DNA of 13,297 bases, taken from positions 1-13,297 of the forward strand of contig JABDLH010000097.1 in the NCBI GenBank assembly GCA_013003145.1. The letters are read 5' to 3'. Of the stretch, positions 6,742 to 8,042 are shown piece after piece. This DNA comes from Flavobacteriaceae bacterium. Its GTDB lineage: Bacteria; Bacteroidota; Bacteroidia; Flavobacteriales; Flavobacteriaceae. The notes under the pieces were generated by a model. That model saw nothing but the letters and a program-made list of their open reading frames with translations, ran no database searches and was not told the DNA's origin. How positions within the stretch are numbered: position 1 is the first letter of the stretch; every line of letters starts with the position of its first letter. The translations under genes were made by a program, and so were the position numbers.

Positions 6742-6803
6742 TTTTATTCACCATACTTAAAACAGTGTTTAACCACAAAAAAAAGAGGCTACACCACAAT
6801 AAG

Positions 6804-6834
6804 TTGCGATAATTTCTATTATTAAATATGTTTA
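6804..6834 (+). promoter_or_regulatory. Candidate Bacteroidetes promoter for the tiny-ORF pair
   Basis: TTG at 6804-6806, a 20-nt spacer, then TATGTTTA at 6827-6834. It matches the Bacteroidetes TTG / TAnnTTTG pattern except for the last base. Transcription would begin near 6840, about 40 nt before the first tiny ORF. An alternative -7 box with one mismatch (CAAATTTG, 6842-6849) lacks a TTG at the right distance. Confidence 0.45.
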
Positions 6835-6865: not shown

Positions 6866-7012
6866 TTAAACCCCACTTACTATGTTGTATGATACCTACG
6901 GTGAGGAATATTTAATTTTCCTTAGAGAATTAAATGAGATCTTAAGTTTAAATGAACTAGCCGAGCTGGATTATCTATAATCGGTTTAAACCCCTAAAAC
7001 CTTTTTACTATG
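6866..7012 (+). repeat. Repeated leader motif ahead of both tiny ORFs
   Basis: TTAAACCCC at 6866-6874 and 6986-6994 is followed in each case by TTACTATG, which includes the start codon (6877-6884 and 7005-7012). The gap between the two blocks is 2 nt in the first copy and 10 nt in the second. This indicates that the duplication that made the two ORFs included their leaders, or that the leader is a conserved translation signal. Confidence 0.6.
6882..6980 (+). CDS. Tiny ORF A, 32-residue acidic helical peptide
   Basis: Not a family I recognise. ATG to TAA encodes 32 residues starting MLYDTYGEEY and containing the core YLIFLRELNEIL. It is strongly acidic, with no Cys, no signal peptide and no double-glycine leader. 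Hydrophobic residues at 11, 14, 17, 20/21 and beyond would line one face of an amphipathic helix. The support for translation is its neighbour at 7010-7111, which encodes the same core with different synonymous codons. No Shine-Dalgarno sequence is visible, which is normal for Bacteroidetes. Possible roles include a small regulatory or membrane-associated peptide; nothing in the sequence decides this. Confidence 0.6.
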   Translation: MLYDTYGEEYLIFLRELNEILSLNELAELDYL

Positions 7013-7111
7013 GCAAATGATCACAAAGACCAAGCAGCGTATCTGAATTTCATCGAAGACCTCAATGAAATACTGATGAATTTTAATATTAACAGGCTTA
7101 ACTGTTCTTAA
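7010..7111 (+). CDS. Tiny ORF B, 33-residue paralogue of ORF A
   Basis: Not a family I recognise. It starts 29 nt after the stop of ORF A. The 33-residue product begins MANDHKDQAAY, has the core YLNFIEDLNEIL and ends RLNCS with a single Cys near the C-terminus. Aligned to ORF A at an offset of one residue, Y, L, F, L, N, E, I and L of the 12-residue core are identical. Of these eight, the two Leu before NEIL, the Glu, the Ile and the last Leu use different codons in the two genes, which points to selection on the peptide. The hairpin terminator follows 24 nt after the stop. Confidence 0.6.
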   Translation: MANDHKDQAAYLNFIEDLNEILMNFNINRLNCS

Positions 7112-7135: not shown

Positions 7136-7166
7136 AAAAAAGGGAACTGACAAGCTCCCTTTTTTT
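7136..7166. terminator. Bidirectional intrinsic terminator between tiny ORFs and rpoD
   Basis: A perfect 10-bp stem pairs AAAAAAGGGA (7136-7145) with TCCCTTTTTT (7156-7165). Two more pairs form inside after one A-C mismatch, leaving a GACA loop (7149-7152). The T-run serves the + strand and the A-run serves the minus strand, where rpoD ends 12 nt away. It therefore suits both convergent units. Confidence 0.88.
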
Positions 7167-7178
7167 ATGGATAATGAT

Positions 7179-8042
7179 TTATCCCAAATAATTTTTAAGC
7201 AATTTACTCCTGGAATTATGACGTAGTTTCCTGATCGCTTTTTCGCGGATCTGGCGTACCCTTTCCCGGGTCAGATCAAAAGTCTGACCAATCTCGGCCA
7301 GGGTCATGGATTGTTGGTCCCCGATCCCGTAGTATAACTTAACCACATCGGCTTCGCGAGGAGAAAGTGTATCCAGGGCCCGGTTGATCTCGGTATTCAA
7401 GGACTGCTGCATCAGTGATTTATCCGGCTTGGGGGATTCCCCGGATCGCATGACATCATATAAATTAGAATCCTCTCCCTCTTTTAAAGGGGCATCCATA
7501 GAAACATGGCGGCCTGAATTTTTAATGGACTGCTTGACTTCATTTACGCTCATATCCAATTCTTTCGCGATCTCTTCTGCAGAGGGCGGACGTTCATGAG
7601 CTTGTTCCAGGTAGGAAAAAGTCTTTTTGATCTTATTGATAGAACCGATCTTATTCAGAGGTAATCGTACTACCCTGGATTGTTCTGCCAAAGCCTGGAG
7701 AATAGACTGCCTGATCCACCAAACAGCATAGGAAATAAACTTAAACCCCCTGGTTTCATCAAAGCGCTTTGCAGCTTTAACCAAACCGACATTCCCTTCA
7801 TTGATAAGGTCAGGTAATTTTAATCCTTGATTTTGATATTGTTTGGCCACGGAGACGACGAATCGTAAATTGGCGTTGGTGAGTTTTTCTAGTGCGGCTT
7901 GATCCCCTTCCCTTATTTTTTGGGCCAGCTCAACTTCTTCATTAGCAGTGATCAGATCTATTTTACTGATATCTTGCAGGTATTTATCTAATGATTTGGA
8001 TTCTCTGTTTGTTACCTGCTTGATTATCTTTAGTTGCCTCAT
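7179..8042 (-). CDS. rpoD: Primary RNA polymerase sigma factor RpoD/SigA
   Basis: 287 aa, the usual length for the Bacteroidetes housekeeping sigma factor, which lacks the long region 1.1 and the non-conserved insert of E. coli RpoD. Region 1.2 is near 17-50. Region 2 (about 54-124) shows [18 protein letters not shown] and the DNA-melting [11 protein letters not shown]. Region 3 spans about 133-205. Region 4 (about 218-275) ends in the helix-turn-helix [20 protein letters not shown], which contacts the -33 element. It directs RNA polymerase to housekeeping promoters, here TTG / TAnnTTTG. The ATG at 8042 gives the canonical MRQLKI start. It is transcribed alone, convergent with the tiny ORFs and divergent from the DUF6155 gene. 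Confidence 0.97.

Follow-up and report, generated by a model that had tools for sequence, protein, structure and literature searches.

Twin microprotein genes beside rpoD in Flavobacteriaceae and a predicted LytTR- and sRNA-based circuit around them

The DNA analysed here (13,297 nucleotides of a Flavobacteriaceae contig, hereafter the window) contains two very short ORFs in tandem, lying between a polysaccharide gene cluster and rpoD. The locus raises the question whether such ORFs are genuine genes and, if so, how they are controlled.

Coding and conservation of the twin ORFs

ORF A (6882..6980, plus strand) encodes 32 residues, MLYDTYGEEYLIFLRELNEILSLNELAELDYL, and ORF B (7010..7111, plus strand) encodes 33 residues, MANDHKDQAAYLNFIEDLNEILMNFNINRLNCS. 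The coordinates, the lengths and the 29-nt gap agree with the initial annotation, and it can be read directly off the sequence that 8 of 12 core residues are identical in A and B, five of the eight through different codons. Comparison of the A and B family profiles gave a probability of 95.4% and an E value of 1.9e-8. Therefore, the resemblance is beyond chance, and A and B are paralogues, as had been supposed. The core originally written as Y-L-x-F-x-x-x-L-N-E-I-L reflects a real likeness, but the Glu residue of LNEIL varies in the B family. What the two families share is approximately Y-x2-F-[LIV]-x2-[LI]-N-x-[IM]-L.

Of 397 Flavobacteriaceae genomes sampled, 78 contained A and 72 contained B. 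The strong sets consist of 73 genomes for A, after removal of G024, G048, G145, G214 and G267 (E values of 5e-4 to 0.008), and of 70 genomes for B, after removal of G040 and G341. G024 and G267 were later handled as carriers of a distant A. With ORF B as the query, no homologue was found in 15 genomes of other families, the matches L008, L009, L010 and L012 being discarded as chance. The carriers of A in an order sample (12/296) and a phylum sample (5/296) are all Flavobacteriaceae, where the non-family share of the samples is not given. Stretches encoding A in GTDB species genomes amounted to 245 named loci, the best 80 of which were retained for analysis; they come from Zeaxanthinibacter, Robiginitalea, Muricauda/Allomuricauda/Flagellimonas, Maribacter, Eudoraea, Croceitalea, Croceivirga and others. 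The genome of the window belongs to the same genus as G001–G003.

All of these best 80 of 245 loci keep A as 32 codons with no internal stop, the 80 genes comprising 77 distinct DNA sequences and only 22 proteins. B is recognised in 78 of the 80 loci, 74 times with 33 residues and twice each with 34 and 32. All 80 A and 78 B genes start with ATG. Over 3160 pairs of A genes the raw pN/pS is 0.08, and over 2701 pairs of B genes it is 0.28; pS is saturated in these comparisons, and the variation lies mostly at third codon positions. A genes that have diverged from the main group and lie elsewhere still have 32 codons. Thus, the claim that the peptides show the pattern of translated and selected sequences is borne out, and the search for frame loss in relatives did not refute it. 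In two loci (L134 and L145), A is present and no B was recognised downstream.

These values also bear on a reading in which the locus yields no more than a structured or antisense RNA and its ORFs are incidental. RNA-level constraint on the leader and on codons 3, 5 and 6 of A, as described later, is in its favour, as is the fact that the related LytTR-site sRNAs mostly have no ORF of at least 25 residues ahead of the terminator (one of them, L262, has a 41-residue ATG frame). The pN/pS values, the unbroken frame and the ATG starts of the A and B genes, and the 32 codons kept by diverged A homologues contradict this reading, which was rejected on codon statistics and is exceedingly improbable. 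In the sequences compared, coding and conservation strongly support A and B as real genes for microproteins, probably transcribed together as a single short unit.

Neither A nor B has any match in Pfam or NCBIfam, in agreement with the initial statement that no matching family was known, and the A-family profile gave no match among PDB chains. In the best AlphaFold models, A has predicted helices at residues 2–6 and 8–23 (pLDDT 87.5, pTM 0.48), and B has a single predicted helix at residues 3–31 (pLDDT 81.5, pTM 0.45). Both are acidic and predicted to be helical, with a shared conserved face. The description of the peptides as amphipathic is weak, since the hydrophobic moment of the helix is ordinary in comparison with shuffled sequences (reached by 2883 of 20000 shuffles for A and 1256 of 20000 for B).

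Neighbourhood, promoter and LytTR-type repeats

The constant neighbour of the pair is rpoD/sigA (7179..8042, minus strand, with Sigma-70 domains), which is convergent with A in 80/80 loci (best 80 of 245). An intrinsic terminator predicted from the sequence (approximately 7136..7166) is common to the A-B unit and the convergent rpoD. In the window, its stem has an internal A·C mismatch and is absent from the list of the terminator scan; the stem is perfect in a congener (L002).

The position in the window and the invariant convergent rpoD may suggest that the peptides are part of the polysaccharide operon upstream (GT2, sulfatase-like, YaiO) or act on the adjacent RpoD. However, 27/80 loci have a YaiO-like gene immediately upstream in the same orientation, and a separate promoter and leader are conserved in front of the A-B pair. 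The view of the pair as an appendix of the polysaccharide operon was therefore rejected as a constant association. Of six further genomes that were fetched, five (L152–L156) have the A homologue with no rpoD inside the 8 kb taken, which disfavours a regulator dedicated to RpoD. Membership of the polysaccharide operon or action on RpoD is very unlikely. No B was seen next to the diverged A genes in L152–L156, which suggests that a duplication of A gave rise to B.

The promoter candidate of the initial annotation exists and is one that we take to be of the Bacteroidetes type; a generic sigma-70 scan does not list it. In the window it spans 6804..6834 on the plus strand, with TTG at 6804–6806, a 20-nt spacer and the −7 element TATGTTTA at 6827–6834. 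In the sequences upstream of A, TTCACCACA stands right before the −33 TTG and the −7 TAnnTTTA, and a second copy is found 21 bp further up. The corresponding repeats in the window are the proximal TACACCACA (6790..6798, plus strand) and the distal TTAACCACA (6769..6777, plus strand), each 9 bp long. In 78/80 loci, the best match to the proximal repeat deviates at no more than one position. A distal repeat with at most one mismatch to TTCACMACA precedes the proximal one by exactly 21 bp in 68/80 loci, and at 11 other offsets in none. Counted from the first base of the proximal repeat, a −7-like element follows at 37 nt in 64/80 loci; in 8 loci none was recognised.

LytTR sites, in the part of the literature report available (PMC6193735), are 9-bp direct repeats, mostly with a 12-bp spacer, just upstream of the −35 element. 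The repeats of the A-B promoter have this geometry, being 9-bp direct repeats upstream of the −35 region with a spacer of 12 bp. Their sequence, TTCACMACA, is unlike the mostly ACCNCTTA-type repeats of the same excerpt, which itself notes low sequence conservation among LytTR repeats (PMC6193735). From these sequence features we infer that a LytTR response regulator probably activates the A-B promoter, with binding to the repeats being predicted.

The distribution of the sites is consistent with this prediction. The strict pattern TTCACMACA-N12-TWCACMACA was found in 18/20 A-bearing genomes (not in G126 and G168) and in 0/16 others, which include the distant-A genomes G024 and G267; the reversed control gave 0 in all 36. 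A looser pattern was found in 8/8 A-bearing genomes with 3–6 sites each, against one reversed-control match in the eight. With up to two mismatches, the genome of the window has 14 sites against 0 for the reversed control. As far as loci were fetched, 16 of the 26 site-bearing genomes have sites adjoining the gene of a LytTR response regulator, of a TPR-HisKA_2 histidine kinase or of both. An ortholog of this regulator is present in 20/20 A-bearing genomes (360–447 bits, 75–93% identity) and in 0/16 others, whose best match has 161 bits and 39% identity. Since A, B, C, the regulator and the sRNAs occur in one clade, common descent accounts for some of this co-occurrence.

In the fetched loci there are 116 distinct sites, and several gene classes recur behind them: the A-B operon, stand-alone sRNAs, another microprotein (C), a protein of 123–126 residues, the kinase gene itself, and proteins of the collagen-like and LRR types (a single member of either type was domain-tested). 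The 123–126-residue protein is found in L161, L165, L171, L172, L189, L191, L198, L220, L234 and L236, and the one member tested (L267) gave no Pfam or NCBIfam match. A 58-residue protein with one hydrophobic stretch, beginning MSYKIKSLLYFVCFLAAIGIYEL, stands behind a site in the window genome and a congener (L315 and L318), and a 56-residue protein beginning MKNVLLI[RK]EIY in two genomes (L225, from 1329, and L252, minus strand). In L170 (from 1500), and in L308 and L312 (window genome), sites are followed by a shared short segment, TTTTCATTTTCATATAGTGTTCTCGTAAAAG, and then by a hairpin and a T-run; this segment is possibly another tiny RNA.

Microprotein C has 33–35 residues (MEAQMN..EEIQVYKNDFFSGIVMLTKKLFML) and is encoded behind LytTR-type sites, with a terminator called in 8/10 cases and a GNAT gene behind it in the single case tested (L168). 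C was found in 72 genomes, 70 of which were kept (G012 and G224 were dropped). These 70/397 are the same 70 that carry strong B, where 10 of them supplied the C profile; the strong A genomes are these 70 plus G075, G095 and G305. C gave no match in NCBIfam. A relationship of C to A was rejected (hhalign probability of 0.2%). In the genus of the window, no repeats were recognisable in the C promoter. The genes of C and of the sRNAs are located elsewhere in the genomes, outside the window, which on its own could not have revealed them.

Two complementary sRNA families and the microprotein starts

The stand-alone LytTR-site sRNA genes carry the motifs CCCCAAATC, CTTGAACTTAACC and ACCTACTTAA followed by a terminator. 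A model built from 22 of 33 members (11 were excluded from the alignment and model) matches 21/30 A-bearing genomes and 0/20 others. Because 12 of these 21 genomes had contributed members to the model, the independent figure is 9/18. In the remaining 9/30 A-bearing genomes, the model search found no LytTR-site sRNA. Neither the window nor seven loci of these sRNAs gave an Rfam match at the gathering score.

Weak matches of the model turned out to be the reverse complement of a second sRNA, whose genes lie on the opposite strand. This multicopy sRNA is a short RNA with a near-invariant 40-nt core, CCATAGCATAAGTAGGTTAAGTTCATGGTAAGATTTGGGG. A −7 box of TAnnTTTG is found in 51/103 copies, and many of the others shown have a TAnnTTTA-like box. 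Behind each of the 40 copies shown stands a separate terminator, which differs between copies. The core, at up to three mismatches, is present in 25/26 A-bearing genomes, 2/2 distant-A genomes and 1/17 others, with 0 matches for the reversed control. The A-bearing genomes have 2–6 copies, mostly clustered. The one other genome, G015 (L343), carries one copy, and A was not detected in it. The single A-bearing genome in which no copy was found is that of the window itself, whose assembly is 68% complete; three congeners carry 3–5 copies. Six loci around the reverse-complement hits gave no Rfam match.

The LytTR-site sRNAs contain the motifs CCCCAAATC, TGAACTTAACC and ACCTACTT, which are complementary to the multicopy sRNA. 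The mean duplex energy with the core is −34.8 kcal/mol, with z below −2 in 24/24 cases (nine of the 33 sRNAs, those without a called terminator, were excluded). This mutual pairing is not independent evidence, since the multicopy sRNA was found as the reverse complement of the LytTR-site model. In contrast, the pairing of the core with the starts of A and C is independent evidence.

In the window, the predicted pairing site (6871..6903, plus strand) comprises the end of the leader, the start codon, codons 5–6 and part of codons 7–8 of A. The duplex has an energy of −27.3 kcal/mol (z of −2.46 and p of 0.01 against dinucleotide shuffles). The A leaders have a mean of −23.6 kcal/mol with z below −2 in 74% of 80, and the C leaders one of −30.9 kcal/mol with z below −2 and the start codon covered in 11/11. 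The B start regions have a mean of −19.4 kcal/mol with z below −2 in 27% of 78, and the B duplex of the window is within the range of shuffles (z of −0.57, p of 0.28). For control starts, the values are −12.9 kcal/mol (3% of 76) for rpoD and −16.0 kcal/mol (5% of 150) for other ORFs, the latter being ATG frames of 150 residues or more, taken mechanically from 40 of the 80 loci, and not curated genes. Other protein genes near LytTR-type sites have z below −2 in 7/38 cases. Complementarity above chance at the translation start is therefore seen for A and C, and not for B of the window or most other B starts.

The A leaders pair better with the true core than with any of 100 shuffled cores (mean of −15.8 and best of −20.95 kcal/mol), and a CCCAAAT-like motif occurs in 68/80 of them against 23 expected from shuffles. 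The codon usage under the duplex should be noted. Codon 5 is ACC in 65/80 genes and codon 6 is TAC in 72/80, whereas Tyr10 and Tyr31 use TAC in only 37/80 and 29/80, respectively. However, codon 3, which is unpaired in the window duplex, is equally biased (TAC in 72/80), indicating that other start-proximal effects are possible.

These energies also leave some room for a different reading, in which A and B are under LytTR control, but the complementary sRNA acts as an activator or stabiliser, or truly works on the LytTR-site sRNAs and pairs with A only incidentally. The pairing is strongest with those sRNAs and weaker with A, B hardly pairs, and the direction of regulation cannot be obtained from sequence. 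On the other hand, the start codon is covered in A of the window and in all C leaders examined, and both the superiority over shuffled cores and the bias at codons 5–6 argue against this reading. We consider the activator or incidental reading unlikely, and a block of translation by the multicopy sRNA is preferred.

The distant-A genomes G024 and G267 carry the multicopy sRNA with neither the LytTR ortholog nor a site, and the pairing there is non-significant (z of about −1). This observation suggests that the microprotein and the blocking sRNA may predate the link to LytTR.

The proposed circuit and its place among known systems

The findings can be combined into a model, which we regard as probable overall. 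The LytTR regulator, paired with the TPR-HisKA_2 kinase, would activate the A-B promoter. The multicopy sRNA would base-pair with A from the leader across the start codon into the early codons, and also with the start of the unrelated microprotein C, to block translation; B would be blocked perhaps through coupling to A. LytTR-type sites would also drive the second sRNA family, whose complementary motifs would act as decoys titrating the blocking sRNA. Upon activation of the two-component system, the microprotein mRNAs would thus be transcribed and the block on them lifted together. We guess that A and B, as effectors, bind a protein partner. The stronger proposal, that this is an undescribed three-layer circuit of marine Flavobacteriaceae in which LytTR-induced decoy sRNAs neutralise a near-invariant multicopy sRNA to free A, C and, via A, B, is tentative, its chances falling somewhat below even. 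Among the matches listed, the open-licence PMC literature contains no report of these microproteins or sRNAs.

Several known systems resemble parts of the model. CsrB/RsmZ and sRNA sponges are regulated RNAs that titrate a repressor with repeated motifs. The proposed decoys share this principle, but here the factor predicted to be titrated is itself a multicopy sRNA, and the targets under the same control are microproteins. The FopS sRNAs of Bacteroides form a paralogous family. They are likewise an sRNA family of the same phylum, and no microprotein or decoy link is seen in the available part of their description, by which, and not by sequence, they are set apart (PMC11697453). Rfp18 of Flavobacterium psychrophilum is, in the excerpt available, a conserved trans-acting sRNA of the same bacterial family; it differs, again by description and not by sequence, in being structured and acting on protease mRNAs (PMC9723704). 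The CiaRH regulon of Streptococcus similarly combines a two-component system with abundant homologous sRNAs, the csRNAs, whereas the regulator here is of the LytTR type, and the part of the CiaRH description available mentions no complementary multicopy sRNA or microprotein operon (PMC3091779). LytTR autoregulatory systems, as far as their excerpted account goes, have in common with the present one the 9-bp direct repeats with mostly a 12-bp spacer near −35 and sites adjoining the regulator gene; the present system differs in its response regulator with a HisKA_2 kinase, its sRNA and microprotein regulon, its occurrence in Flavobacteriaceae and its repeat sequence (PMC6193735).

An unannotated pair of microproteins thereby gains a regulatory context, and two sRNA families without an Rfam match and a third microprotein are exposed from sequence alone, all linked by common promoter sites and complementarity. 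They belong to a phylum for which little is known of small proteins or of regulation by sRNAs, and the links are testable in cultured marine strains of Zeaxanthinibacter, Maribacter and Flagellimonas.
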